A stretch of DNA of 64,000 nt from positions 1 to 64,000 of the forward strand of contig JAOTVB010000018.1 in NCBI GenBank assembly GCA_029863605.1, written 5' to 3'. A model generated the notes under the pieces. That model saw only the letters and a list, made by a program, of their open reading frames with translations, ran no database searches and had not been told where the DNA came from. Of the stretch, positions 3,477-17,166 are shown piece after piece. Made by a program: the position numbers and the translations under genes. Origin of the DNA: Myxococcales bacterium (GTDB taxonomy: Bacteria > Myxococcota_A > Polyangia > Polyangiales > Houyiibacteriaceae). Positions within the stretch are counted from its first letter, which is position 1. Every line of letters starts with the position of its first letter.

Positions 3477-3505
3477 TTGTCCAATCCTCGGGCTTCGCCT
3501 AAATG
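3477..3505 (+). promoter_or_regulatory. Weak candidate promoter for the respiratory operon
   Basis: TTGTCC (3477-3482) and TAAATG (3500-3505) are 17 bases apart, 40 bases upstream of the actA ATG. The match to the sigma-70 consensus is partial. The rest of the 235-base gap 3311-3545 is GC-rich, and I see nothing else convincing in it. The operon must start somewhere here, because the gene upstream ends at 3310. Confidence 0.22.
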
Positions 3506-3545
3506 GCGGCGCGGTCGTCGAGAGGACTCTGAGAGAACACGCAGC

Positions 3546-4184
3546 ATGCAGATTTTCCCGCGCGAGCTGAATTACTTGCCCCTCGCATTGGCGCTTGTGG
3601 CTGGTGCCGTCGGAACGGGCGTATTCGTCTTGTTCTGGGTGTACTTCACTCCCTCCAACCTCCAGGTGGGCTACACCCCCGAGCAGCCCGTGGACTACAG
3701 CCACCGTCTGCACGCTGGCGAGCTCGGTATGGACTGCCGTTACTGTCACTCTCAAGTCGAGCGTTCGCACGAGGCGATGGTGCCGCCTACGCAAACCTGC
3801 ATGGGATGTCACGCTCTCGTGGGCACCGAGTCGGAAAAGCTCGCCGCAATCCGCGACAGCTGGGAAACGGGAGAATCGATCGCCTGGGTTCGCGTAACCA
3901 AGGTCCCGGATCACGCGTTCTTCGATCACAGTATCCATCTTGCGGGAGGCGTTGGCTGTGCATCGTGTCATGGCAGGATCGACCAGATGGAGGTCGTCGG
4001 GATCGTAGAACCGTTGGCGATGCAGTGGTGCCTCGAGTGTCACCGCAACCCAGAGCCCCACATTCGACCCAAGAGTGAAGTTACCAATATGGGGTGGCAG
4101 GCCGACGAAACCTGGTTGGCGCAGCGCGCCGAAGTCGCATCCCAGCTCAATCCCCCCATGCACTGTTCGGGGTGCCACCGATGA
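3546..4184 (+). CDS. actA: Alternative complex III subunit ActA, membrane-anchored pentaheme cytochrome c
   Basis: First gene of the alternative complex III (quinol:cytochrome c oxidoreductase) cluster. It carries one N-terminal membrane segment (LPLALALVAGAVGTGVFVLF) followed by a periplasmic region with five CxxCH heme c sites: CRYCH, CMGCH, CASCH, CLECH and CSGCH. Five hemes is the number known for ActA in characterised complexes. The hemes are expected to form part of the wire from the quinol site toward ActE and soluble or bound cytochrome c. The ATG at 3546 is chosen over an in-frame TTG at 3477 because it starts directly before the membrane anchor. Its stop (TGA 4182-4184) overlaps the actB start in an ATGA junction, so translation is probably coupled. 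Confidence 0.93.
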   Translation: MQIFPRELNYLPLALALVAGAVGTGVFVLFWVYFTPSNLQVGYTPEQPVDYSHRLHAGELGMDCRYCHSQVERSHEAMVPPTQTCMGCHALVGTESEKLAAIRDSWETGESIAWVRVTKVPDHAFFDHSIHLAGGVGCASCHGRIDQMEVVGIVEPLAMQWCLECHRNPEPHIRPKSEVTNMGWQADETWLAQRAEVASQLNPPMHCSGCHR

Positions 4185-7100
4185 CCCGCCGCAAGCAATA
4201 CGAGTTGAACCAAGGCAAGGGCCCGTCGATGTGGCGGAGCTTGGAAGACAAGAACACCGATCCCGAGTCGCTCAAAAAGCTAGCCGAAGAAGAGCAGCCT
4301 GGTGGCTTCGTCCGTGACCTCGTCGCGCCGGCATCGCTGGTAACGAGGCGCTCTCTCCTCAAGGGGTCGTCGATCGCAGCGCTGGCTGCCGGCCTTCAAG
4401 GCTGTCTCCGTCGTCCTGAAGACATCATCTATCCGTACAGCAAGTCCCCGGAAAACCTCATCCCAGGCATTGCGAATCATTTCGCGACAGTCACTGCGCG
4501 GGGGCGCGACGCGCTCGGCGTCGTCGTGACGAGTCACAATGGCCGCCCGACCAAGGTCGAGGGTAACACGCTCTCGCGAGCCAGCCTGGGCGCGACCGAC
4601 GTCCGTGCCCAAGCGTATGTCTGGGACCTCTACGATCCCGATCGCTCGAAGTCGCCCGCGCGACGTCAGGGCAATGCGCTTGCGGACGCCACCGAAGAAG
4701 AGTTTGGTTCGTTCCTCCAGGAGCTTCTTAAGACTCACGGGGCGGATAAGGGTGCTGGTCTCAGAATCCTCGCTCCGATCAGCAACAGCCCGTCGTTCCG
4801 GGCCATGCGCGCGAAGGTCCTCACCAAATTCCCTAAGGCGCGTTTCCACACCTACAGCGCGGTCAACGATGACAACGCGCGTGAAGGCGCGCGCATTGCG
4901 CTCGACGGTGCTGCGACGGTCCCAATCTACGACCATTTCAAGTCGGCGGTCACGTTGTCATTGGGTTCGGACTTCCTCGGAAACGAACAAGGCGCCGTCG
5001 CCGCCGCCCGACGTTTTGCCGCCACCCGCGCGCTATCGTCCCCTGATGCACCGGTCAATAGGCTCTACGTCGCCGAGTCCAACTTCACGGTCACGGGCAG
5101 CATGGCCGACCACAGGATGCGCTCGTCGCAGACCGACATCGAGTGGTACGCACGTATGCTTGTCATCGCGCTTGCCGCTAGAGGGCTGGACGATCTGAAG
5201 CCCATCGCTGCCGCGCTTGTGAAGAACAAAGATGAAGGCGCTGCCGCCGCAGGCCTCGATACGAAGTGGTTGGAGGCGGTCGCTACGGACCTCGCAAACC
5301 ACCGCGGCCAGTCGATCGTCCTTGCGGGCGCGGCGCAACCACCACGCGTCCATGCCCTCGTGAACGCGATCAACGCGGCGCTTGGCAACTTCGGGCGAAC
5401 GACGTCCTTCGGGCCGGATACCGATCGGGACGACCCCGCGAGTGCGAAGAGCATCGCCGACCTTGCAAAAGATGCCGAAAAGGTCTCCTCCCTGATCATC
5501 ATCGGCGGGAACCCCGTGTACGACGCTCCGGCGGACGTCAAGTTCGCCGACCTTCTCGCTCGAGACGGATTGACCTCGGTGCATCTTTCGACCCACCGAA
5601 ACGAGACGACCGAGCTCTGCGCCTGGCACGCTCCTTTGGCGCACGAGCTAGAAGCTTGGGGAGACCAAGTGGCGCTCGATGGGGCCGTATCGATTCAGCA
5701 GCCCTTGATCGCTCCACTCTACGGCGGTCGCAGTGAAATCGAGTTCCTGGCGGCCCTGGCTGGCGAGGAGACCACGCGGGGTCATGAGATCGTCCGGGAA
5801 GCGCACGGCGCTCGGATTCAAAAAGACACGAAGGCGCTCCTGGGGATGGGACTGTCCACCAAGGAACTCAACGGAGACGCCCTGTGGCGACGCGGGCTTC
5901 ACACCGGCATCTTGTTCACGCCCCAAGCTGGCAAACCGTCGGTCGTGACCGACGCGGTCATTAACGCGCTTCTCAAAAACAAGGTGCGGGAGGAGCCGCG
6001 CGCGGGGACCGTCGAGGTGAGCTTCGAGCCCGATCCCGCTCTCTGGGACGGGCAGCATGCCAACAACCTATGGGCTCTCGAGCTTCCGAGGCCGATGACC
6101 AAGCTCGTCTGGGACAACGCTGCAATCATGTCGCCAGCGACCAGGGACGCGTTCGGGCTGAAAAACGGCCAGATGGTGCGGCTTTCCAAAGGCGACGCGA
6201 GAATCGAAGTGCCGGTCTGGCCAATTCCCGGCCATGCGGACAACTGCATCACCCTCACGCTCGGATGGGGTCGCACCGCGGCGGGCCGTTATGGCAATGG
6301 CAAAGGCTTCGACGTGAATCCGTTGCGGATGCTCGACGGGATGGATTTCACCGGAGACGTCAAGCTCGAGCCGCTCACCGAGACATACAAGCTCGTACAG
6401 ACTCAGACGCACGACCGGATGGAAGGTCGTCCAATCGCGATCGACGCGACGCTCGACGAGTACAAGAAAGAGCCCGACTTCGCCTCCTATCGCTCGGTCG
6501 ATCCCGTGAGCACGCCGCCACTATGGAAGCAACAAGACTACAGCGACGGCTACAAATGGGGGATGACCATCGACCTTGCGTCGTGCACGGGGTGCAATGC
6601 CTGCGTGGTCGCTTGCCAGGCCGAAAACACGATTCCGGTCGTCGGCAAAATCGAAGTCGAGCGAGGCCGAGAAATGCATTGGCTGCGCATCGATCGGTAC
6701 TTCGTCGGCGAGGACGAAGGCGATCCGCAGGTTGCGGTTCAGCCGGTCACTTGCCAGCAATGTGAAGAGGCGCCGTGTGAGAACGTCTGTCCGGTCAACG
6801 CGACGGTTCACAGCCCCGAGGGCTTGAACGACATGTCCTACAACCGCTGCGTTGGTACGCGATATTGCGCCAATAACTGCCCGTATAAGGTGAGGCGCTT
6901 CAACTATCTCGACTACCACGGTCACCTCGACGACAAGTTCGCTTGGTACGGAGACTTCCCGGAGTCGCGCAAGCTTCAGTTCAACCCCAATGTCACCGTC
7001 CGGATGCGCGGCGTGATGGAGAAGTGCACTTATTGTGTGCAGCGTATCCAAGAGGTGAAGATCGTAGCGAATCGCGAGGACCGCAAGGTCAGAGACGGGG

Positions 7101-7303
7101 AGATCAAAACCGCTTGTCAGCAAGCCTGCCCAAGCGCAGCGATCACCTTTGGTGACCTAAACGACCCTAACAGTCGGGTGGCCAAGCTCTCCGGAATCGA
7201 CCGTCAGTATAAGTTGCTTGCCGAGATCGGTACGCGACCCCGCACGACTTACCTTGCCCGCATTCGCAACCCGAACCCCGAGCTGAGAAAAAAGGGTAGC
7301 TGA
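4181..7303 (+). CDS. actB: Alternative complex III subunit ActB, molybdopterin-oxidoreductase-like/Fe-S fusion
   Basis: A 1040-residue periplasmic subunit. The N-terminus has a twin-arginine motif (TRRSLLKGSSIAALAAGLQG) at about residue 50, with a Cys right after the hydrophobic stretch, so Tat export is likely. Residues about 70-770 have the CISM molybdopterin-oxidoreductase fold but no N-terminal cluster Cys set, as known for ActB, which binds no molybdenum cofactor. Residues about 780-1000 are a polyferredoxin-like domain: CTGCNACVVAC (about 802), CQQCEEAPCENVCP (about 858), CVGTRYCANNCP (about 890), CTYCVQRI (about 949) and CQQACP (about 978), enough ligands for four clusters. It passes electrons between the quinol site at ActC and the heme subunits. 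It overlaps actA by four bases, and actC begins six bases after its stop. Confidence 0.93.
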   Translation: MTRRKQYELNQGKGPSMWRSLEDKNTDPESLKKLAEEEQPGGFVRDLVAPASLVTRRSLLKGSSIAALAAGLQGCLRRPEDIIYPYSKSPENLIPGIANHFATVTARGRDALGVVVTSHNGRPTKVEGNTLSRASLGATDVRAQAYVWDLYDPDRSKSPARRQGNALADATEEEFGSFLQELLKTHGADKGAGLRILAPISNSPSFRAMRAKVLTKFPKARFHTYSAVNDDNAREGARIALDGAATVPIYDHFKSAVTLSLGSDFLGNEQGAVAAARRFAATRALSSPDAPVNRLYVAESNFTVTGSMADHRMRSSQTDIEWYARMLVIALAARGLDDLKPIAAALVKNKDEGAAAAGLDTKWLEAVATDLANHRGQSIVLAGAAQPPRVHALVNAINAALGNFGRTTSFGPDTDRDDPASAKSIADLAKDAEKVSSLIIIGGNPVYDAPADVKFADLLARDGLTSVHLSTHRNETTELCAWHAPLAHELEAWGDQVALDGAVSIQQPLIAPLYGGRSEIEFLAALAGEETTRGHEIVREAHGARIQKDTKALLGMGLSTKELNGDALWRRGLHTGILFTPQAGKPSVVTDAVINALLKNKVREEPRAGTVEVSFEPDPALWDGQHANNLWALELPRPMTKLVWDNAAIMSPATRDAFGLKNGQMVRLSKGDARIEVPVWPIPGHADNCITLTLGWGRTAAGRYGNGKGFDVNPLRMLDGMDFTGDVKLEPLTETYKLVQTQTHDRMEGRPIAIDATLDEYKKEPDFASYRSVDPVSTPPLWKQQDYSDGYKWGMTIDLASCTGCNACVVACQAENTIPVVGKIEVERGREMHWLRIDRYFVGEDEGDPQVAVQPVTCQQCEEAPCENVCPVNATVHSPEGLNDMSYNRCVGTRYCANNCPYKVRRFNYLDYHGHLDDKFAWYGDFPESRKLQFNPNVTVRMRGVMEKCTYCVQRIQEVKIVANREDRKVRDGEIKTACQQACPSAAITFGDLNDPNSRVAKLSGIDRQYKLLAEIGTRPRTTYLARIRNPNPELRKKGS

Positions 7304-7308
7304 ACACC

Positions 7309-8766
7309 ATGAGCTACGACGCGCCCATCAAAGAACTCGGTGAAACCTACCTGCTCCCGGAGGGCACCACCGCTCACCAAGTCACTGAGACGATCGCGCG
7401 GGTCACCGAAAACAAAGCACCCCGTGGCTGGTGGCTGCTCTTTTTGATGTCGCTTACCGGTCTTGGCGCCATGGGCGGCGCTCTGACTTATCTCTTCGTG
7501 CAGGGCGTCGGCGTCTGGGGCAACAACGCGCCGGTATATTGGGCCTGGGACATCACCAATTTCGTCTGGTGGATCGGCATCGGCCACGCGGGGACACTGA
7601 TTTCGGCGATCTTGTTTCTCTTCCGCCAGAAGTGGCGCACGAGCATCAACCGGTTTGCCGAAGCGATGACGGTCTTTGCCGTGCTTTGCGCGGCCCTCTT
7701 CCCCGCGATTCACACCGGGCGTCCGTGGTTCGACTATTACTTGTTTCCGCTTCCGAATCAGATGGACATGTGGCCGAACTTCAAGAGCCCGCTCATGTGG
7801 GACGTCTTTGCGGTCAACACCTACCTCTTGATCAGCGTCATCTTCTGGTACATGGGCCTGATCCCGGACTTCGCGACGCTGCGAGACCGTTCCAAGAGTC
7901 TCTTCCGCAAGCGAGCCTACGGCTTCTTCGCGTTGGGTTGGCGCGGGGCGCATCGGCACTGGCAACACTACGAGCGCGCGTACCTGATTCTCGCTGGCAT
8001 CTCGACGCCCCTGGTTCTTTCGGTGCACTCGGTCGTTTCGTTCGACTTCGCGACCTCGGTCGTGCCGGGGTGGCACACGACGATCTTTCCGCCGTACTTC
8101 GTCGCAGGCGCCGTGTTCAGCGGGTTTGCCCTCGTCACGACGCTGATGCTCATCTGTCGGAGCGTCTTCAAGATGCAGAACGTCGTCACGGTGAAGCATC
8201 TGGACTTGATGAACAAGTTCATGCTCGGTACGGCACTCCTGGTTGGCTACGCGTATGCGATGGAGCTCTTCATCGCTTGGTACTCTTCGAATCCTTATGA
8301 GCAGTGGGTCTTTCTGCACAATCGGCTTGGCTGGGGCATTCTTGACAGCGACGGCAACTGGGGGCCGCTCTGGTGGGCGTACTACACGATGGTGTTCTGC
8401 AACGTCGTAGTGCCTCAGATCTTCTGGTTCAAACGGGCTCGCACGAGCGTTCCGATCATGTTCATCGCGAGCATTCTCATCAACATCGGCATGTGGTTCG
8501 AGCGCTTCGTCATCATCGTGACATCGACCTATCAAGACTTCCTTCCCTCGGCCTGGGGCATGTTCCACCCGACATTGATCGACATCCTTACCTATCTCGG
8601 CACTTTCGGGCTGTTCTTCACGCTGTTCCTGCTCTTCGTCCGATGGCTGCCGATGATCGCCATCGCCGAGGTCAAAGGGACACTGCAGGGAGCACATCCC
8701 GATTTGCACGCCGTTGAAGCACTAGATGAGCCGGGCGCGGCCACCGCGCCGGTGCCCGCGGAGTGA
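7309..8766 (+). CDS. actC: Alternative complex III subunit ActC, NrfD/PsrC-like quinol-binding membrane protein
   Basis: A 485-residue polytopic membrane protein of the NrfD/PsrC family with about ten hydrophobic helices. It is the subunit expected to hold the menaquinol/quinol oxidation site and possibly a half-channel for protons. Features typical of ActC are visible: the cytoplasmic N-terminus ending in APRGWWLLFL, the FVWWIGIGHAGTLISAIL helix, and the conserved His/Asp/Glu residues in PAIHTGRPWFDYY and NIGMWFERFVII. The stop overlaps a possible GTG start of actD in a GTGA junction (8763-8766). Confidence 0.93.
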   Translation: MSYDAPIKELGETYLLPEGTTAHQVTETIARVTENKAPRGWWLLFLMSLTGLGAMGGALTYLFVQGVGVWGNNAPVYWAWDITNFVWWIGIGHAGTLISAILFLFRQKWRTSINRFAEAMTVFAVLCAALFPAIHTGRPWFDYYLFPLPNQMDMWPNFKSPLMWDVFAVNTYLLISVIFWYMGLIPDFATLRDRSKSLFRKRAYGFFALGWRGAHRHWQHYERAYLILAGISTPLVLSVHSVVSFDFATSVVPGWHTTIFPPYFVAGAVFSGFALVTTLMLICRSVFKMQNVVTVKHLDLMNKFMLGTALLVGYAYAMELFIAWYSSNPYEQWVFLHNRLGWGILDSDGNWGPLWWAYYTMVFCNVVVPQIFWFKRARTSVPIMFIASILINIGMWFERFVIIVTSTYQDFLPSAWGMFHPTLIDILTYLGTFGLFFTLFLLFVRWLPMIAIAEVKGTLQGAHPDLHAVEALDEPGAATAPVPAE

Positions 8767-9368
8767 GGCGCATTATGGTCGAACAAGCGCACAATCAGTC
8801 ATCGACGAAACGGCCGGCGCTATATCTGGCCGAGTACGACACGCCCAACGCCATCGCCAAGGCCGCGATGAAAGTCCGAGATGCGGGTTACAAGAAATGG
8901 GACTGCCACAGCCCGTACGCCATGCACGGGATGGACGAAGCGATGGGCCTCAAGCCCACCAAGATCGGCTTCATCTCATTCTTCTTCGGCATGGCAGGCG
9001 TGGCCACCGCGGTCCTGATGATGAAGTACATGAACGCGTGGGACTTCAACTTTCTGGATATCGGCTGGGGCTACCCGATCATCGTGGGCGGCAAGCCGCC
9101 GGGGGCGTTTCCGTCGATGGTGCCGATCATGTTCGAGCTCGGCATTCTGTTCTGTGGCTTCGCAACGCTCTTCGGGTTGCTCGGCATCATCAAGCTCCCG
9201 CGTCACAACCATCCGATTTTCGAATCGGAACGGTTCGAGGCTGCGACCGACGACAAGTTCTTCATCTCGATCGAGGCGGGCGACCCGAGCTTCGATCTCG
9301 ATCGAACCAAGGCGCTTCTGGAGTCGACCGGCCCTACGCATCTCGAGCTCATCGAGGAGGCTGCATGA
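8763..9368 (+). CDS. actD: Alternative complex III subunit ActD (DUF3341)
   Basis: About 200 residues with two transmembrane helices (around KIGFISFFFGMAGVATAVLM and IMFELGILFCGFATLFGLLG) between soluble ends, which is the DUF3341 arrangement of ActD. The N-terminal half resembles a small soluble domain (ALYLAEYDTPNAIAKAAMKV) ahead of the membrane hairpin. It is thought to be structural, with helices next to ActC. Two starts are possible: GTG at 8763 in the GTGA overlap with actC, or ATG at 8775, which has a purine-rich GAGTGAGG upstream. The product differs by four residues only. The stop overlaps the actE ATG (9365-9368). Confidence 0.92.
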   Translation: MRRIMVEQAHNQSSTKRPALYLAEYDTPNAIAKAAMKVRDAGYKKWDCHSPYAMHGMDEAMGLKPTKIGFISFFFGMAGVATAVLMMKYMNAWDFNFLDIGWGYPIIVGGKPPGAFPSMVPIMFELGILFCGFATLFGLLGIIKLPRHNHPIFESERFEAATDDKFFISIEAGDPSFDLDRTKALLESTGPTHLELIEEAA

Positions 9369-9997
9369 AGCGCTTCCTCTTGATGTTGGTGGTGCTGGAA
9401 ACGTTGGCGACAGGCTGCGTCGGCACGGAGAGCAAAGAGCCTCCGATCGTCGGCATTCGCAACATGTACGAACAGCCGCGCTACGATACCCAAGAGAAGA
9501 AGCCCTTCTTTGCCGACCAGCGTTCGATGCGCCCAAAGGTCGAGGGCACCGTTTCGAGGGAGATGGAACCAACGTTCACGTGGGCCACTGGGCGCACGGC
9601 CGACGAAGCGTACGTCATGGAAGTACCAGCGCGGCTCATCGCGGCGCGCGGCGGCAGCAGGGCTTTCGTCGAGCGTGGCCGGGACCGCTACAACATCTAC
9701 TGCTCTCCTTGTCATTCGTACTCGGGTAACGGCAAGGGGATGGTATCGCGGCGCGCGGACCAACTAGGAGCTGCGGGCCTGGTCGCTCCCACCTTTCATG
9801 ATGACCGCCTGCGCCACGTTCCCGACGGCCAGATTTACGCAAGTATCACGAATGGCGTTCGCAACATGCCGGGCTACGCCCACAACATCCCGGTCGACGA
9901 CCGCTGGGCCATCGTCCTGTACGTCCGCGCGCTTCAGCTGAGTCAGGCGCCCCAGGCGGCTGCCACGGCCACCACCGAAACGGAGCAAGCGCAGTGA
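9365..9997 (+). CDS. actE: Alternative complex III subunit ActE, lipoprotein monoheme cytochrome c
   Basis: A 210-residue exported protein with a lipoprotein signal (LLMLVVLETLATGC, Cys at about 18) and one heme c site CSPCH, followed by a plausible distal Met in RNMPGYAHNIP. In characterised complexes ActE is the lipid-anchored monoheme cytochrome at the periplasmic face that hands electrons to a mobile or oxidase-bound cytochrome. The tail is Ala/Thr/Gln-rich and probably disordered. ATGA overlap with actD at the start and GTGA overlap with actF at the end. Confidence 0.92.
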   Translation: MKRFLLMLVVLETLATGCVGTESKEPPIVGIRNMYEQPRYDTQEKKPFFADQRSMRPKVEGTVSREMEPTFTWATGRTADEAYVMEVPARLIAARGGSRAFVERGRDRYNIYCSPCHSYSGNGKGMVSRRADQLGAAGLVAPTFHDDRLRHVPDGQIYASITNGVRNMPGYAHNIPVDDRWAIVLYVRALQLSQAPQAAATATTETEQAQ

Positions 9998-11346
9998 CTG
10001 AAGCGAATAGCAACACGGACTACCGCGTCGGGAACGATGGTTTCTGGGCCCGCGCGTGGGTCGCGCCCTTGGTGCTCGCGGGAGTCGGCGGCTTGATGGC
10101 GGCCCTCACCGCAGGTCCCGAGCGACTGGGCTATGCTTATCTCTTCGCGCTCTTCACCGTCGTGACCTTCATGCTCGGCGGGATCTTTCTGGTACTGATC
10201 CAGTTCCTCACGGCCGCTCATTGGGGGGTGTCGACGAGACGGATCGTCGAGGTGGTCATGTCCGGCGCGCCGGTCGTGGCCTTGCTAGCCGCGCCACTCA
10301 TTTTCGGCGTGGCGACCGGAAAGGTTCCGATTTACCAAGAATGGCAAGGTGAGGGCGAACACGGCGCTCATCACGAAGGGCCCTCAGACGAGCATGGCGT
10401 CCTCGGGCTCGCTGCGAGCGTGGCGCAGGCACAAGGGCACGAAGCCGGCCACGAAGGCGACGACGCCGGGCATGACGAAGGACATGCTCATACGGCCCAA
10501 GAGACGAAGCTCCATCACGAGGTCATCGAAGCGAAGACGGGCTATTTGAATACTCGCAGCTGGACGATGCGCGCGATCATCTACCTCTTGATTTGGTCGG
10601 TGATCGCCCTCCTGTATTTTGGCTGGTCGCGCCGCCAAGACGACGACCACGACCCCAAGCACACACTCCGCATGCAGAGCCTGGCGGCGCCGCTACTTAT
10701 CGTGTTTGCGGGCACTCTCACGTTTGCTGCCTTCGACTGGTTGATGTCTCTTGAGCCTTCGTGGTTCTCGACGATTTTCGGAGTCGTGATCTTCGCCGGA
10801 TCGGCCGTGGCGATCCTCGCAGCCACCATTCTCATCGGCCTCAGCCTCTACAAGCGCGGCCTCGTCGGTGAGGCCATCAATCCCGTACATTTCCACGACC
10901 TCGCCAAACTGTTGTTTGGGTTCATCTGCTTTTGGACCTACGTCTCGTTCTCGCAATGGATGTTGATTTGGTATGCGGGCATCCCGGAGGAGGCCACTTG
11001 GTTCCACAAGCGCTGGGGGGGCGGCTGGATGTTCGTCTCCTATCTACTGATTTTCGGGCACTTCGTGGCGCCTTTCTTGCTGCTGATTTCACGCGTCCAG
11101 AAGCTCAACCTCCGTTGGCTTCAGGCGATGTGCCTCTGGGTCATCTTCATCCACGCCGTGGACATTTACTGGTTCGTCCTTCCGCAAGCCGGCGCCTTCC
11201 GGATTCAGCTGGCGGACATCGGGGCTTTGCTTTTCGTCGGTGGCGTGTTCTTCGCCTATGTTTTTTGGCAGCTCGGCCGCGTTCCCCTGATCCCCGTGGG
11301 CGACCCACGGCTTCAAAAGAGCCTTCACCACTATCAGACACATTGA
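9994..11346 (+). CDS. actF: Alternative complex III subunit ActF, NrfD-like membrane protein with His/Asp/Glu-rich loop
   Basis: A 450-residue polytopic membrane subunit homologous in fold to ActC, with about ten helices, and thought to contribute a second proton half-channel rather than a quinol site. The GTG start lies in a GTGA overlap with the actE stop. The unusual part is the loop after the third helix, about residues 116-180, which is packed with His, Asp and Glu (for example GEGEHGAHHEGPSDEH and HEAGHEGDDAGHDEGHAH). Helices resume at ARSWTMRAIIYLLIW-like sequence. The C-terminal half (WMLIWYAGIPEEATWFHKR, FVAPFLLLISRVQK) is standard for ActF. Confidence 0.92.
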   Translation: MTEANSNTDYRVGNDGFWARAWVAPLVLAGVGGLMAALTAGPERLGYAYLFALFTVVTFMLGGIFLVLIQFLTAAHWGVSTRRIVEVVMSGAPVVALLAAPLIFGVATGKVPIYQEWQGEGEHGAHHEGPSDEHGVLGLAASVAQAQGHEAGHEGDDAGHDEGHAHTAQETKLHHEVIEAKTGYLNTRSWTMRAIIYLLIWSVIALLYFGWSRRQDDDHDPKHTLRMQSLAAPLLIVFAGTLTFAAFDWLMSLEPSWFSTIFGVVIFAGSAVAILAATILIGLSLYKRGLVGEAINPVHFHDLAKLLFGFICFWTYVSFSQWMLIWYAGIPEEATWFHKRWGGGWMFVSYLLIFGHFVAPFLLLISRVQKLNLRWLQAMCLWVIFIHAVDIYWFVLPQAGAFRIQLADIGALLFVGGVFFAYVFWQLGRVPLIPVGDPRLQKSLHHYQTH

Positions 11347-11356
11347 GCATTCAAGG

Positions 11357-11980
11357 ATGAGTACGAAGCAGAGAATTCTGAGCACCGTCGCGACTCTCGT
11401 CGTGTGTGGGGCAGGTTGTGGCCAGCCCGATGCGGCCGATCGGAGCTGGCCCGATGACGAGTACGCCATCGTGAAACAGAATCAAGAAGCCAGCCTCGAC
11501 GCTGGCACGATGCCGATCGACCAGGCGATGAGTGAGCTGGTGACCAAGCAACGCTCCGACCTTTCGCCGATCTCTGCGGCGCCCTCGGAGGACCTTTCGG
11601 CGGTAAGCGGCTGGTCGTTTCAAGGCGCGGTCACCATTGCACCCGGCGAGGTCACCATGCCGCCCGAGTGTGAGGGTGCGGCGGAGCCGATGGCGTGCTG
11701 GGGTCAGAAGCTCAGCAACACCAAGGGCTGCATGGCGTGCCATTCCGTGGACGGGGTCAAGCAGCAACCGTGTCCAAACTGGAAGGGCCTCTTTGGCAAG
11801 GAGAGGCTTTTGGTGAGCGGCGAGACGGTCACCGCCGACGAGGAATACCTCACCAACTCGATTCTCAACTCCTGGGATCAGGTCGTCGAGGGCTACCAAA
11901 AGACGATGCCGCCGTACAACTTTCCTGAGCAGGAAGTCGCTGCGTTGGTTGCTTATGTGAAATCGTTGGGAGGCGGATGA
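11357..11980 (+). CDS. Lipoprotein monoheme cytochrome c
   Basis: A 207-residue protein with a lipoprotein signal (VATLVVCGAGC) and a single heme c site CMACH in a C-terminal class I-like cytochrome domain, about residues 110-205. A possible distal Met lies in TMPPYNF. The 70 residues between lipid anchor and cytochrome domain are polar and probably a flexible tether. Placed between actF and the oxidase genes, it is a candidate carrier linking complex III to the oxidase, the role a fused cytochrome domain plays in caa3 oxidases; the coxB here lacks such a fusion. Ends in an ATGA overlap with the next cytochrome gene. Confidence 0.85.
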   Translation: MSTKQRILSTVATLVVCGAGCGQPDAADRSWPDDEYAIVKQNQEASLDAGTMPIDQAMSELVTKQRSDLSPISAAPSEDLSAVSGWSFQGAVTIAPGEVTMPPECEGAAEPMACWGQKLSNTKGCMACHSVDGVKQQPCPNWKGLFGKERLLVSGETVTADEEYLTNSILNSWDQVVEGYQKTMPPYNFPEQEVAALVAYVKSLGGG

Positions 11981-12627
11981 TGATGAATCTACGCTTCGGT
12001 TTCGTTCTGAGCTTGGTTTCGCTTTCCCTGATCGCTTGCGAGGCCCGCACCGACAAAGAGAGCCTCGAGTACCGTGCGGAGCTCTACGACGGATGCGCGC
12101 AATGCCACGGGGTGAACGGTGAGGGGAACGCTGAAATCGGCGCTCCTTCGATCGCTGGCCTCGAGCGCTGGTACGTAAAGGCGCAGCTTCGGAAGTTCAA
12201 ACGTAGCCAACGGGGCTGGCATCCCGAGGACGCCGGCGGCAAGCGGATGTGGCCGATGGCCAGGGCGATGGATACCGACGAGAAAGTCGACCTCGTCTCC
12301 GCCTACGTCGCAAGCTTACCCCTCTACAAGCCCGAGCTGACGCTCGAAGGCGGCAATCCTGCGACGGGGAAGATCTACTTCGCTACTTGCGTGCAATGCC
12401 ATGGAGCCGACGCGGGCGGAAACATCGACGAATACGGTCCGCCCCTTAATTATGCCGACGACTGGTATCTGCTGACACAGCTTCAAAACTTCAAGGCGGG
12501 GCGTCGCGGAACGCACCCCGACGACGTGACCGGGGCCAAGATGCGCCCCTTTTCGATGACATTGCCTACTGAACAGGCCATGAAAGACGTCATCGCCTAC
12601 ATTGGCACGCTGCCGAACCAGAAATGA
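11977..12627 (+). CDS. Lipoprotein diheme cytochrome c (c4-like)
   Basis: A 216-residue lipoprotein (signal ending SLSLIAC) with two tandem cytochrome c domains, heme sites CAQCH (about residue 38) and CVQCH (about 137), each followed by a Met-containing segment (KRMWPMARAMD and KMRPFSMTLP) suitable as distal ligand. The two halves resemble each other (KAQLRKFKRSQRGWHPEDAGG against LTQLQNFKAGRRGTHPDDVTG), so the gene arose by domain duplication, as in cytochrome c4. Likely another electron carrier between alternative complex III and the oxidase. Three consecutive ATG codons stand at the start (11977, 11980, 11983); the first overlaps the previous stop. Confidence 0.88.
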   Translation: MMMNLRFGFVLSLVSLSLIACEARTDKESLEYRAELYDGCAQCHGVNGEGNAEIGAPSIAGLERWYVKAQLRKFKRSQRGWHPEDAGGKRMWPMARAMDTDEKVDLVSAYVASLPLYKPELTLEGGNPATGKIYFATCVQCHGADAGGNIDEYGPPLNYADDWYLLTQLQNFKAGRRGTHPDDVTGAKMRPFSMTLPTEQAMKDVIAYIGTLPNQK

Positions 12628-12640
12628 AGGTTGAACTTAG

Positions 12641-12751
12641 ATGGCTGACAAAAAGCGCAAACCCGATGAAGAGGCTTCGTTTTGGTTTACATGGACGATG
12701 GCAGGAGCCGCGCTTTTCATCGCCGTTGTCTTCGCTTTCATTCTGAGCTGA
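12641..12751 (+). CDS. 36-residue single-helix membrane peptide in the ACIII-oxidase operon
   Basis: A tiny reading frame, 13 bases after the diheme cytochrome gene and 15 bases before coxB. It encodes a charged head (MADKKRKPDEEASFWF) and one hydrophobic helix of about 19 residues ending at the C-terminus, TWTMAGAALFIAVVFAFIL. GAACTTAGATG precedes the start, with only a weak AAGG ribosome-binding site further up. The position, strand and positive-inside head fit a single-span accessory subunit of the complex III-oxidase supercomplex or of the oxidase, comparable in kind to small subunits found in purified respiratory complexes. No homologue can be named by eye. Confidence 0.7.
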   Translation: MADKKRKPDEEASFWFTWTMAGAALFIAVVFAFILS

Positions 12752-12766
12752 GTTGGGAGGACCCGC

Positions 12767-13513
12767 ATGCTTCAGGGAATATACGAGTTCATCAAGAGCA
12801 TCTTCGCACCGATCGGGGACTTCTTCATCGGTTCTCTCGTTCCGGTCGGGTCGTCCTTTGCGAGTGACATCGATTCGCTGATCGCGCTCGTCGCCGTCTT
12901 CGTCGGCTTCTGGGGGCTCCTCGCCTATATCGCGTTCTTCTTTCTGATCTTTCGCTTTCGCCGCAAAGATGGGCAGCGAGCAAAATACGTCACGGGGGAG
13001 GAAAAAGACCTCAAGCGGTGGATCTCGTGGCCGCACGCCGCGATCATCGTCTGCGACGTGGTCATCGTCTTCATGGCGATCATGGTTTGGTACAACATCA
13101 AACAGCGACTTCCTGAAGCTGACGCCACCGTTCGCATCGTTTCGCAGCAGTGGGCATGGAACTTCATCCATCCGGGCCCAGACGGCGTGCTCGACACCGA
13201 GGACGACATCAATACCTTCAACGAGCTGCACGTCCAGGAAGGAATGGTTTACCATTACGAGCTCGTTTCGAAGGACGTCCTCCACGACTTCTCGGTTCCC
13301 GTCTTCCGCCTCAAGCAGGACGCGATTCCTGGACGCGTGATGAAAGGCTGGTTCAAGCCCACCATCACCGGGACGTATGACGTTCAGTGCGCCGAAATGT
13401 GCGGAGTCGGTCACGGGATCATGGGCGCGCGCATCATTATCGAGACACCTGAGGAACACGCGGCGTGGATGTCGCAAAACAAGGGGCAGCTCGCGTCGGC
13501 GACGACCCGCTGA
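12767..13513 (+). CDS. coxB: Cytochrome c oxidase subunit II (CuA protein)
   Basis: A 248-residue subunit II. Two transmembrane helices (about residues 25-60 and 85-108) are followed by a periplasmic cupredoxin domain with the aromatic QQWAWNF segment and the complete CuA site: His in VLHDFSVP and CAEMCGVGHGIM supplying Cys, Glu, Cys, His and Met. It accepts electrons from cytochrome c. No cytochrome c domain is fused at the C-terminus, so the oxidase is of aa3 rather than caa3 build. An Asp-rich insertion (GPDGVLDTEDDINT, about 142-155) lies between the aromatic patch and the NELHV strand. The gene ends 11 bases before coxA. Confidence 0.95.
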   Translation: MLQGIYEFIKSIFAPIGDFFIGSLVPVGSSFASDIDSLIALVAVFVGFWGLLAYIAFFFLIFRFRRKDGQRAKYVTGEEKDLKRWISWPHAAIIVCDVVIVFMAIMVWYNIKQRLPEADATVRIVSQQWAWNFIHPGPDGVLDTEDDINTFNELHVQEGMVYHYELVSKDVLHDFSVPVFRLKQDAIPGRVMKGWFKPTITGTYDVQCAEMCGVGHGIMGARIIIETPEEHAAWMSQNKGQLASATTR

Positions 13514-13524
13514 ATGGTATAGAT

Positions 13525-15255
13525 ATGGCTGAAGCAGGCTCGGTAACTGTAGATACTCACGAGGCGCACGGACACGAAGCGCATCACGAGCAGAGCTTTT
13601 GGAGCAAGTACGTCTTCTCCACCGATCACAAGATGATCGCGATGCAGTACATGTTCACCGGCATCGTGATGGCGTTGATCGGTGGTTACATGTCGTATGC
13701 CTTCCGCATGCAGCTCGCGTTCCCAGGGGAGAGCGTGCCGGGCTACGGCTTGGTTTCGCAAGGCGAGTACAATGCGCTGGTTACGAACCACGGCACAATC
13801 ATGATCTTCTGGGTCGCGATGCCGATGCTGATCGCGGCCTTTGGCAACTTCCTGATCCCCTTGATGATCGGCGCCGACGACATGGTGTTCCCCCGCATCA
13901 ACCGACTCTCGTATCAGATCTTCTTCATCAGCGCGGTCGTGCTGATCGCCTCGTTCTTCGTCCCGGGCGGCGGCTTTGGCGGTGCTTGGACCGCGTATCC
14001 GCCCCTCTCGGCGAACGCCCAATACAACCTCACGCCTCTCGGAGCGACGTTTTGGATCGTCGCCGTTGCGCTCGAGTTCGTGGCGTTCTTGTTGGGCGGC
14101 ATCAACTTCATCACGACGCTCATGAACTCCCGAGCGCCAGGCATGAAGATGTACGACATCCCGATGGTGCTCTGGATGATCGTGATCGCGAGCATCCTTT
14201 TCATGGCGTCGGTGGGGCCGCTGATCGCAGGCGCAGTCATGCTCTTCATGGACCAGGTGATCGGCACCGGGTTCTTCGACCCAAACCGCGGCGGCGACCC
14301 GATTCTGTGGCAACATCTCTTTTGGTTCTTTGGGCATCCCGAGGTGTACGTCGTGTTGTTACCCGCCATGGGCATCGTCGCCGATGTGATATGCACATTC
14401 GCCCGCAAGAAGCTCTTCAACTACAAGCTGATTCTCTTCACAGTCTTTGCGACCGGCATCATCAGTTTCTTCGTGTGGGCGCACCATCAGTTCGTGGCCG
14501 GTATCGACCCGCGGATGGCGAACGTGTTCACTGTCACGACGTTGATCATTTCGATCCCGATCGCCGAGATGCTGTTCTTGTACATCGCGACCCTCTACGG
14601 CGGCTCGATTCAGCTCACCACACCGATGCTTTGGGCGTTGGCTTTCATCGCCGAGTTCTTGATCGGTGGCGTGACGGGTATCTTCCTCGGAGCGAGCGGC
14701 GCGGACATCTACTTCCACGACACCTACTTCGTGCTCGCTCACTTCCACTACACATTCTTCCCGATCGCGATCATCGGTTTCTACGCCGGAATCACATATT
14801 GGTTCCCGAAGATGTTCGGGAAAATGATGAACGAGGCGCTCGGGAAGATTCACTTCTGGGGCACGATCATCGCCTTCAACTGCATCTTCATTCCGTTGTT
14901 CATCCTCGGCGCGGCAGGGCAGCATCGACGCATCTACAACTTCCAAAACTTCCCCGACTTGGCGGGGCTCCAGGACATGCGGGTTTTCGCGACGATGGCG
15001 CTGATCGTCATGCTCGCGTTCCAGGTCGTCTTCTTGGTCAACTTCGTGATGAGCCTCATCAAGGGGAAGCCGGCGGGCAAGAACCCCTGGAAAGCGAACA
15101 CCCTCGAGTGGACGGCCGAGTCGCCCCCACCGCATGGCAACTGGCCCGAAGGGCTTCCGAACTGTTACCGGGGCCCCTACGAGTACAGCGTCCCGGGCCG
15201 CGAGGAAGACTACTGGCCGCAGAACGCTCCACCGGATACGGCTCCGGCCGAATGA
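13525..15255 (+). CDS. coxA: Cytochrome c oxidase subunit I (A1-type, K-channel Lys apparently absent)
   Basis: A 576-residue catalytic subunit with twelve core helices. Heme and copper ligands are present: His in NHGTIMIFW (low-spin heme), CuB ligands in WFFGHPEVY and WAHHQF, and both His of HDTYFVLAHFHYTF. GHPEVY carries the glutamate and the cross-link Tyr of A1-type oxidases, and the D-channel entrance reads GADDMVFPRIN. At the K-channel helix, however, where TG(I/V)K(I/V)F(S/N)W is usual, this protein reads IPIAEMLFLYIAT, with no Lys. The N-terminus is His-rich (THEAHGHEAHHEQ). The ATG at 13525 is chosen over an upstream in-frame start at 13465 that would overlap coxB by 49 bases. Confidence 0.95.
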   Translation: MAEAGSVTVDTHEAHGHEAHHEQSFWSKYVFSTDHKMIAMQYMFTGIVMALIGGYMSYAFRMQLAFPGESVPGYGLVSQGEYNALVTNHGTIMIFWVAMPMLIAAFGNFLIPLMIGADDMVFPRINRLSYQIFFISAVVLIASFFVPGGGFGGAWTAYPPLSANAQYNLTPLGATFWIVAVALEFVAFLLGGINFITTLMNSRAPGMKMYDIPMVLWMIVIASILFMASVGPLIAGAVMLFMDQVIGTGFFDPNRGGDPILWQHLFWFFGHPEVYVVLLPAMGIVADVICTFARKKLFNYKLILFTVFATGIISFFVWAHHQFVAGIDPRMANVFTVTTLIISIPIAEMLFLYIATLYGGSIQLTTPMLWALAFIAEFLIGGVTGIFLGASGADIYFHDTYFVLAHFHYTFFPIAIIGFYAGITYWFPKMFGKMMNEALGKIHFWGTIIAFNCIFIPLFILGAAGQHRRIYNFQNFPDLAGLQDMRVFATMALIVMLAFQVVFLVNFVMSLIKGKPAGKNPWKANTLEWTAESPPPHGNWPEGLPNCYRGPYEYSVPGREEDYWPQNAPPDTAPAE

Positions 15256-15265
15256 CGAGGCACCG

Positions 15266-15841
<576 letters not shown>

Positions 15842-15862
15842 GGGCTTGAGGGACTACGAATC

Positions 15863-16291
15863 ATGGCTGAACACGAGGAACACGCAGAACACGGCCAATC
15901 CCACTACGTGCGGATATGGGGCATCCTGCTCGTCTTGCTGACGGTCAGCATCCTCGGGCCAGTCCTGGCGCCCCACATCGAAGAGGCAGCAGCTGGGGTC
16001 GGGGCCGCGTTCGTCAAAGGGTGGATGATCACCCTCTTGACGGCCTTCGGGATCGCGATTTACAAAGCCTATCTCGTCGCGGCGAACTTCATGCACCTCA
16101 ACATCGAGAAGCGGTACATTTCGTATCTGTTGGCCACCTTTCTGACGCTCATGGTCTTGTTTTTCGCGGGAACTTCCCCAGATGTGATGAAGCACAAAGG
16201 TCAGAACTGGGAAAACGTCGCGGCCGAAGCGGAGGTCGATCGGGCGCTGAAATCGCAGGAGTCCGACAGCCACGGCGGAGAACACAACTAA
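15863..16291 (+). CDS. coxD: Cytochrome c oxidase subunit IV (prokaryotic COX4 family)
   Basis: A 142-residue protein with three predicted helices (YVRIWGILLVLLTVSILGPV, a second around WMITLLTAFGIAIYKAYLVA, a third around SYLLATFLTLMVLFFAG). The motif VAANFMHLNIEKRY is typical of the small subunit IV encoded with CoxC in bacterial aa3/caa3 operons. Its role is structural. Both ends are His/Glu-rich (EHEEHAEHGQSH at the N-terminus, HGGEHN at the C-terminus), repeating the pattern seen in ActF and CoxA. Placed between the two subunit III genes. Confidence 0.85.
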   Translation: MAEHEEHAEHGQSHYVRIWGILLVLLTVSILGPVLAPHIEEAAAGVGAAFVKGWMITLLTAFGIAIYKAYLVAANFMHLNIEKRYISYLLATFLTLMVLFFAGTSPDVMKHKGQNWENVAAEAEVDRALKSQESDSHGGEHN

Positions 16292-16309
16292 AGAAAGGAG
16301 GAACATCAC

Positions 16310-16900
16310 ATGCCGGATGACGCACTAGGTCGCCCCTACCAGGTCCCGGTCAAGCGTGAGCCGCTCCTCCCTAACGGTGTGATGGGGATGCTGATCTTCG
16401 TCGCGACCGAGGTCATGTTCTTCTCTGGCCTCATCAGCGCCTTCGTGATCGGCAAGAGCAACGCAATCGGCGGCTGGCCGCCACCGGGTCAACCGCGTCT
16501 CCCCGTCGAGGAGACTGCGTTCAACACCGCCGCCCTCCTTGCAAGCGGCGTTTGTCTCTACTTCGCCAATCGAGCGTTTCGCGAAGGCGCAGCTCGGGCC
16601 AAGGGTTTGTTGCTCGCGTCGATCCTCCTTGGAGGGTTCTTCGTGCTGTTCCAAGGCGCCGAATGGGTCGCGCTCGTGCGCGAAGGGCTCACCCTGACCT
16701 CGGGCCAGCTCGGTGGGTTTTTCTATCTCATCGTCGGGACGCACGCGCTTCACGTGGTCGCTGGCTTTGCAATCCTGCTCTACACGTACAACAAGCTCGC
16801 GCACGGCGACCTGAGCCGCTTCACGTTCTGGCCGGCACAGATTTTTTGGTACTTCGTTGTCGGGGTTTGGCCGGTACTCTATTGGCTGGTGTACTTGTGA
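16310..16900 (+). CDS. coxC: Cytochrome c oxidase subunit III, second copy
   Basis: A 196-residue membrane protein of the subunit III family: FVATEVMFFSGLISAFV holds the conserved Glu, and IVGTHALHVVAGFAILLY and FWPAQIFWYFVVGVWPVLYWLVYL match the C-terminal helices. It is clearly distinct from the copy at 15266, with different loops and an NSPVEETAFNT-like loop here (LPVEETAFNTAALLASG). GGAGG precedes the ATG. Because long subunit III proteins have seven helices and these two have about five each, both may be needed, or one may belong to the ACIII-oxidase interface. GTGA overlap with the next gene. Confidence 0.88.
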   Translation: MPDDALGRPYQVPVKREPLLPNGVMGMLIFVATEVMFFSGLISAFVIGKSNAIGGWPPPGQPRLPVEETAFNTAALLASGVCLYFANRAFREGAARAKGLLLASILLGGFFVLFQGAEWVALVREGLTLTSGQLGGFFYLIVGTHALHVVAGFAILLYTYNKLAHGDLSRFTFWPAQIFWYFVVGVWPVLYWLVYL

Positions 16901-17166
16901 GCCGCTGGTTTCTATCGATGGGCGCGGTTGCGGTCGGCTCAGTTGCGGATCTCGCGCGGGCCTGTCCTTCTTGTGCTTCGCCCCTCGAAGAAAATCGCCA
17001 AGCCTTCGTCGATACGACGATCCTACTGACCTTCTTGCCACTGATCATGATCGGCGGATTCATCTGGTGGCTTCGCCGAAAGGCCCAGCAACTCGAGCAG
17101 CCGCCCGAAATCGCCGTCCCCGAAACCCTCCTCCGGGACATCAGACCCCTCCCGAAAGAACGGTGA
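16897..17166 (+). CDS. Small exported CxxC membrane protein of unknown function
   Basis: An 89-residue protein starting at a GTG that overlaps the subunit III stop (GTGA). It begins with a short hydrophobic leader (WFLSMGAVAVGSVADLA), probably a signal peptide, followed at once by CPSC, a short polar stretch and one transmembrane helix (TTILLTFLPLIMIGGFIWWL) with a basic cytoplasmic tail. The CxxC would therefore sit in the periplasm next to the membrane. That would fit copper handling or thiol chemistry for the oxidase, but no function can be assigned from sequence. It is the last gene of the respiratory operon. Translational coupling argues that it is genuine. Confidence 0.65.
   Translation: MSRWFLSMGAVAVGSVADLARACPSCASPLEENRQAFVDTTILLTFLPLIMIGGFIWWLRRKAQQLEQPPEIAVPETLLRDIRPLPKER

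Follow-up and report, generated by a model that had tools for sequence, protein, structure and literature searches.

In the window, by which we mean the whole stretch of 64,000 nucleotides of DNA that was analysed, an ACIII operon and two cytochrome c genes are followed by a small reading frame and by the genes of an oxidase module (Table 1). The names actA to actF are our own assignment from gene order and heme counts, in line with what is known of the family. The N-terminus of the diheme cytochrome, CytD, resembles a lipoprotein signal (LSLIAC, judged by eye), while the monoheme cytochrome c gene upstream of it is found in 13 of the 80 loci compared below, 12 of them from the window's genus. 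The window's CoxB contains the CuA pattern and no CxxCH motif, that is, no cytochrome c domain of its own. The start of coxA has also been called from 13465, and its residues were counted from 13531 in our analysis. At the end of the module, the second coxC-like gene is present in 63 of the 80 loci, and the unnamed small membrane protein gene that comes after it, at 16897-17166, in 46 of the 80, some loci being short contigs.

Table 1. Coordinates of the features at the locus, in positions of the window
Feature	Coordinates	Strand	Basis
ACIII operon actA-F	3477..11346	+	ORFs, gene order, heme counts
Monoheme cytochrome c between actF and cytD	11357..11980	+	Pfam Cytochrom_C E=2.2e-11
cytD, diheme cytochrome c	11977..12627	+	Pfam Cytochrom_C E=2.6e-22, two CxxCH
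36-aa single-span peptide (sORF), predicted N-in/C-out	12641..12751	+	ORF, purifying selection, family in 73/80 loci
coxB, oxidase subunit II, 248 aa, CuA domain	12767..13513	+	Pfam COX2 E=1.4e-14
coxA, oxidase subunit I, start uncertain	13525..15255	+	alignment with R. sphaeroides 1m56_A (E=2.2e-122)
Short coxC, oxidase subunit III	15260..15841	+	Pfam COX3 E=3.6e-17, module context
Oxidase subunit IV, COX4_pro-like	15863..16291	+	Pfam COX4_pro E=2.9e-6, just below family cut-off
Second coxC-like gene	16310..16900	+	name from position and resemblance
Second small membrane protein gene, module end, start uncertain	16897..17166	+	

The small frame before coxB and its conservation

According to the ORF listing of the window, the frame consists of 36 codons beginning with ATG and is closed by a TGA stop; its translation is MADKKRKPDEEASFWFTWTMAGAALFIAVVFAFILS, a peptide of 4097 Da. 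It is present as the earlier note had described it, a 36-residue frame with a single span between the cytochrome and coxB genes, and the tight spacing claimed there is exact, with 13 bases between the end of the diheme cytochrome gene and the frame (12627 to 12641) and 15 between the frame and the start of coxB (12751 to 12767). The charged head and the C-terminal hydrophobic helix are likewise recognisable in the window's copy, with charged residues prevailing at positions 1-11 and hydrophobic ones at positions 13-36. Given that 17 ORFs of at least 20 aa overlap positions 12400-13000 in the same listing, a frame of 36 codons is by itself no evidence of a gene.

The start, length and stop of the peptide gene are unchanged in 12 loci of the same genus, including the window's own. 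Over all pairs of these 12 copies, the pN/pS of the frame is 0.31, a ratio to be taken as a guide because the pairs are non-independent and the pairwise estimate is uncorrected for saturation or relatedness. The five other reading frames of the same copies gave values from 0.46 to 1.48, and none of 200 column permutations reached the value of the peptide frame. By codon position, 13, 16 and 29 of the 36 columns are variable. The peptide is present in 15 of the 19 genomes of the window's genus, and in the four members without it (G001, G009, G010 and G015) a coxB match is absent too.

For a wider comparison, named genome contigs were scanned with a coxB profile, which left 80 loci. The starting peptide profile, made from ten same-genus and two same-order copies, some of which come from genomes among the 80, detected the peptide before coxB at 67 of these loci (E<0.05). 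With the iterated profile, the number rose to 73 (72 at E<1e-3), the best opposite-strand control match in the same upstream regions having an E of 0.55, and a stricter whole-locus search keeps it in 68. As for the seven loci with no match, L043 belongs to a genome with an assembly gap at that point, seen in L013, and a second place in it has the peptide; L094 has a similar helix that runs into CoxB. In L090, L096, L101 and L106, a membrane-helix frame can be seen by eye at the peptide site, and the profile gives it no support; in L078, neither the profile search nor a look at the locus found a peptide before coxB.

According to the submitters' labels, which are unchecked, the loci belong to Myxococcota, Acidobacteria, Verrucomicrobia/Opitutia, Gemmatimonadetes, Bdellovibrionales, SAR324 and Tanganyikabacteria, and the close relatives of the window's locus are labelled as Myxococcales, Polyangiaceae or Deltaproteobacteria MAGs. 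The oxidase module is also carried by a record labelled as a Klebsiella pneumoniae MAG (L060), a label that looks wrong. Members of the family have a median length of 36 aa, and 56 of the 72 measure 33-41 aa. Among the 52 aligned members, position 16 is always F, W or Y, and G22 and T19 are found in 71% and 67%, respectively.

Judging from the sequences, we hold with very high confidence that 12641-12751 on the forward strand is a real, conserved and overlooked gene for a small membrane protein. The earlier note had named two findings as refutations, namely no counterpart in related genomes and random codon substitution; the gene survived both, with a counterpart before coxB in 73 of the 80 loci and a pN/pS that no permutation equalled.

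Association with CoxB type and with ACIII

We searched 377 genomes of the window's phylum, taken as Myxococcota, with profiles for the peptide, ActC and CoxB. The peptide profile, used independently of any coxB query, matched 109 of these genomes (E≤0.001), and ActC relatives were found in 317. The CoxB profile matched 127 genomes at E≤1e-40, and the CoxB type was defined by those 120 that scored about 7e-66 or better. All 109 peptide-bearing genomes fall among the 120 that have this peptide-type CoxB (Fisher p about 1e-82, relatedness ignored). Furthermore, 110 of the 116 peptide genes lie on the same strand as such a coxB and directly before it, the other six matches being located away from coxB (in G187, G443, G031, G200, G230 and G319). 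Counted from the side of coxB, 111 of 127 coxB places have an adjoining peptide and 16 do not. Eleven of the 120 genomes with this CoxB type are without a peptide match: six of them score weaker on CoxB, while G026, G234, G390, G421 and G474 have a strong CoxB score and yet no peptide match.

ActC is present in 105 of the 109 peptide-bearing genomes and in 212 of the 268 others (Fisher p about 9e-6, relatedness ignored). Since ACIII is far more widespread and all carriers of the peptide have one CoxB type, the CoxB type appears as the determinant and ACIII as the background. At the level of the locus, an ACIII gene lies upstream in only 10 of the 59 loci that have at least 4 kb before coxB, seven of these 10 coming from the window's genus, and the remaining 49 have no ACIII gene there. 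ActC is encoded somewhere in 40 of the 42 module genomes at E≤1e-50. The other two are G493, which has a 42%-identical ActB-like protein, and G495, in which the ActB match is to the iron-sulfur part only and there are three cytochrome b matches. G467, which is 88% complete and apparently the same genome as G495, has the peptide and no good ActC. Two of the four peptide genomes with no ActC match show other ACIII genes, namely G004, with actF on the contig of its coxB (L039), and G295, with an ActB fragment.

The opposite arrangement was found in ten genomes of the same order (G020, G021, G022, G024, G025, G027, G029, G033, G034 and G035), where ActC and a distant coxB type lie about 5 to 6 kb apart on one contig. 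The family profile detected the peptide in none of the ten; the starting profile alone gave weak matches at other places, in G022 within a frame of 455 aa (E=6.9e-5) and in G027 (E=0.09). The eight CoxB that were read from these genomes all have CxxCH and are caa3-like, and the motif is also present in 12 of the 13 CoxB of L018-L030, the exception being L018; peptide-type CoxB is without it.

At 3477-16900, the window has ACIII and then an aa3 module with separate cytochromes, and in genomes of the same family and order (L019-L030) ACIII is followed by caa3-like genes. The window's genus thus joins its family's ACIII to an oxidase module of another kind, and it seems that the oxidase downstream of ACIII was exchanged in this genus.

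The peptide follows the CoxB type, with a linkage that is nearly obligatory, and does not track ACIII linkage. As ACIII is encoded in most of the peptide-bearing genomes, the peptide may nevertheless be in contact with ACIII.

A putative oxidase subunit and competing explanations

In a single MAG labelled Verrucomicrobiales (L064), the peptide (E=3e-10) and CoxB form one frame of 278 aa, which keeps the internal ATG of CoxB together with a purine-rich stretch. Both genes share one reading frame in 24 of 73 loci, L064 included, so a single lost stop or a base error could explain this fusion. In another single MAG, labelled Tanganyikabacteria (L094), a frame starting with GTG at 5869 leads from a helix into CoxB with no stop, and an ATG is absent near the usual CoxB start. 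Here, the extra helix is not statistically related to the family (E=0.37), and its homology therefore rests on its place and appearance; L094 is a possible second fusion of peptide and CoxB. Matches to coxB among the relatives of the fusion genomes amount to 1 of 1, 1 of 18 and 2 of 268 genomes, with the fusion genomes counted, which are so few that hardly any relative is able to test the fusions. The sole informative one, G770, has the peptide and coxB as separate genes.

With regard to topology, the stretch before the helix is richer in K and R than the one behind it in 68 of the 72 members, and the reverse is seen in none, so an N-in orientation is to be expected. The N-terminus of CoxB is periplasmic in known oxidases. 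A peptide whose C-terminus lies at the periplasmic face would meet it there, so that joining the two in one chain agrees with the topology. For the L064 fusion, the AlphaFold model predicts one helix at residues 6-34, followed by the CoxB hairpin at 54-85 and 102-135, and it leaves the extra helix unplaced (pLDDT about 51-71 for residues 1-30, pTM 0.59, CoxA not included). In a fold search, the part of this model that aligns with subunit II of A-type oxidases starts near residue 46, and the fold matches listed, which span mainly residues 49-267, include no known counterpart of the extra helix. The two hairpin helices of the L064 CoxB were carried over to the window's CoxB by homology.

The explanation that we prefer, with a probability of around 0.64, is that the peptide would be a small, stably bound accessory subunit of one A-family (aa3-type) branch, located beside CoxB. 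As such, it would cross the membrane as a single helix with its N-terminus in the cytoplasm and its C-terminus at the periplasmic face, lie next to the N-terminal end and the transmembrane hairpin of subunit II, and hold CoxB, and possibly the interface between CoxB and CoxA, in place. We base this on the selection acting on the frame, its place before coxB, the linkage to a single CoxB type, the L064 fusion and, less firmly, that of L094, the conserved residues and the single helix of the fusion model. The unlinked copies in G032 described below count in its favour as well, since they are what one would expect if the protein works in trans. Less easily reconciled with it are the coxB places and CoxB-type genomes with no peptide match, the six matches away from coxB and the paralogues next to unrelated genes. 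We infer that the peptide is translated and permanently bound, and likewise its orientation, its position and what it stabilises. On sequence grounds, our confidence in a stable oxidase subunit is moderate.

It is unlikely, though worth keeping in mind, that the peptide is instead an assembly factor of the oxidase that is absent from the mature enzyme, for example one that holds CoxB during the insertion of CuA or heme. Small single-span proteins linked to oxidase genes can play such a role, as is the case for CcoH and COX14, and there are weak matches to the Pfam family COX14 in 2 of 52 members of the peptide family; with a best E of 0.016, however, these are not credible alone. The occurrence of the peptide away from coxB could also speak for this explanation: in G032, the coxB region has no peptide, and the genome contains two copies that are not linked to it. 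Nevertheless, the placement of 110 of 116 peptide genes directly before coxB, as well as the L064 fusion, fits a stoichiometric subunit somewhat better.

Unlinked paralogues exist in G031, G061, G065 and G066 as well. Across these four genomes and G032, the paralogues at L141, L142, L143, L144, L145 and L149 lie away from oxidase genes, and some are extended at the C-terminus. Among the neighbours of the unlinked paralogues, we found unrelated genes and no common context.

The possibility, raised in the earlier note, that the peptide is a bridge from complex III to the oxidase, taken here as a role within a supercomplex, appears quite improbable to us. It would suit the position of the gene between the ACIII and cox genes in the window's genus, as well as the higher frequency of ActC in peptide-bearing genomes, but the 49 of 59 loci with no ACIII gene upstream and the absence of the peptide from the ten genomes that have ActC and another coxB on one contig argue against it. 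In addition, G467 carries the peptide with no good ActC, its ActB match being to the iron-sulfur part only, and has cytochrome b. A dedicated ACIII bridge is, in short, unsupported. The more general part of the same proposal, a small respiratory subunit, is upheld as a probable reading by the linkage to CoxB type and the conservation over several phyla by label, with weaker support from the fusions.

It is very improbable that the peptide serves to dock the diheme cytochrome c, the presumed electron donor of CuA, at the membrane. In favour of such a role, the gene for this cytochrome, cytD, adjoins the peptide gene on its upstream side in 65 of the 68 loci where the strict search found the peptide, and this CoxB has no cytochrome c domain of its own, when 12 of 13 other CoxB have CxxCH. 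Nonetheless, in the SAR324 loci L086 and L092, which have both the peptide and coxB, about 12.7 kb of sequence contain no match to cytD, and the fusion partner of the peptide is CoxB and not the cytochrome. Finally, that the frame is untranslated or a mere leader coupling the translation of coxB, as its shortness and closeness to coxB might suggest, is hardly tenable in the face of selection at the amino-acid level, conservation across several phyla (by label) and unlinked copies kept elsewhere.

Channel residues and comparison with known systems

According to PMC3084760, the K-channel of A-type oxidases is formed by Lys354, Thr351, Ser291 and Tyr280 (P. denitrificans numbering), and only 4 of 1216 sequences were without the channel residues of their type. 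We read the corresponding positions in the CoxA of 75 module loci within L031-L110. The equivalent of the lysine is M, L, I or A in all 70 readable loci, with a Glu one position before it in all 70; all 70 loci readable at the threonine position have I, V or L there, and the equivalent of the serine is not Ser in any of 71 readable loci. The D-channel positions checked are kept, with D132 and N139 in 74 of 74 and E286 in 72 of 72 readable loci of the 75, and the equivalent of the helix-VI tyrosine Y288 is also kept in module CoxA. In the window, M347 of CoxA (counted from 13531) aligns with no gap to the lysine of R. sphaeroides 1m56_A whose number we take to be K362. In the 11 other CoxA of the order, the lysine is kept in 5 of 6 readable cases, the serine position is not Ser in 7 of 10, and the E286 position is mostly Ala, which is A2-like. 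Subunit II differs as well: the glutamate of the canonical CoxB motif LE..WT (read in L024, L026 and L030), which presumably sits at the K-channel entrance, has mostly given way to a Lys/Arg-rich, KRW-like sequence in the module (L031-L110).

One could propose from these residues that the peptide marks an undescribed A-family class in which the D-channel is kept and the K-channel lost, and that its helix takes part in the entrance of a replacement proton pathway, but we regard this as improbable. In L179, the CoxA Glu before the lysine position is missing, yet a similar small frame precedes coxB; its presence argues against a strict link between the peptide and such a class, with the proviso that this frame is not statistically a member of the family (E=0.18). 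The peptide, which is conserved in several phyla by label and missing from the family libraries searched, probably belongs to a respiratory enzyme and gives a signature for a distinct oxidase branch. The residues of this branch do not fit the definition published for the A-type K-channel, which bears on the delivery of protons to the active site.

The peptide family has no credible match in Pfam (the best among 52 members being GDT1, E=0.0085) or in NCBIfam (best E=0.016), nor does its profile have one among PDB sequences (best E=0.93). Among the papers listed by searches of open-licence literature on small proteins before coxB, ACIII subunits and A-type oxidases without the K-channel lysine, we saw no description of the peptide. 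A known gene cluster resembles the locus in having a diheme cytochrome c4, one extra gene and then coxB-coxA-coxC; in that cluster, however, the extra gene codes for a rusticyanin-like copper protein and not for a helix of 36 aa.

Among known small subunits, subunit IV of alphaproteobacterial aa3 oxidases (7ate_D, 1qle_D and 1m56_D; about 50 aa) is a single helix and, like the putative subunit, a small partner of an A-type oxidase. Membership in this family was rejected (hhalign probability 1.4%, no such family among the Pfam matches), and its chains, which are contained in the PDB set, were not listed by the peptide family profile. ActG of the R. marinus ACIII, according to PMC5928083, is a subunit of the Act complex that is predicted to be single-span and is not present in all clusters. 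Compared by this description, the peptide is similar in being single-span and linked to respiration; unlike ActG, it accompanies cox genes and in most cases has no linkage to ACIII. Classification as an ACIII subunit fails on gene linkage, an ACIII gene being present in 10 of the 59 loci with at least 4 kb upstream.

The nearest analogue of the putative subunit is subunit IIa (CbaD) of the B-type ba3 oxidases of Thermus and Aquifex. PMC3128077 describes IIa as a protein of one helix and about 34-41 aa whose gene lies directly upstream of that for subunit II, and as undetected in the few cases of a subunit II with two predicted helices. Membership in IIa was rejected (hhalign probability 1.2%): IIa families are absent among the Pfam matches of the 52 members (E≤5), and the IIa chains 1xme_C and 1ehk_C of the PDB set were not listed by the family profile at E≤10. 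The two partners are also different, since the L064 model gives CoxB a two-helix hairpin, in contrast to the one helix of the subunit II that accompanies IIa, and the oxidase here keeps the D-channel residues that the B-type ba3 enzymes lack. Insofar as IIa is described in that source, the peptide nevertheless resembles it in size, in its single helix, in its place directly before coxB and in its probable polarity. Thus, although the peptide belongs to neither IIa nor subunit IV, the putative accessory subunit may, by analogy, work in the same way as IIa of ba3 oxidases.
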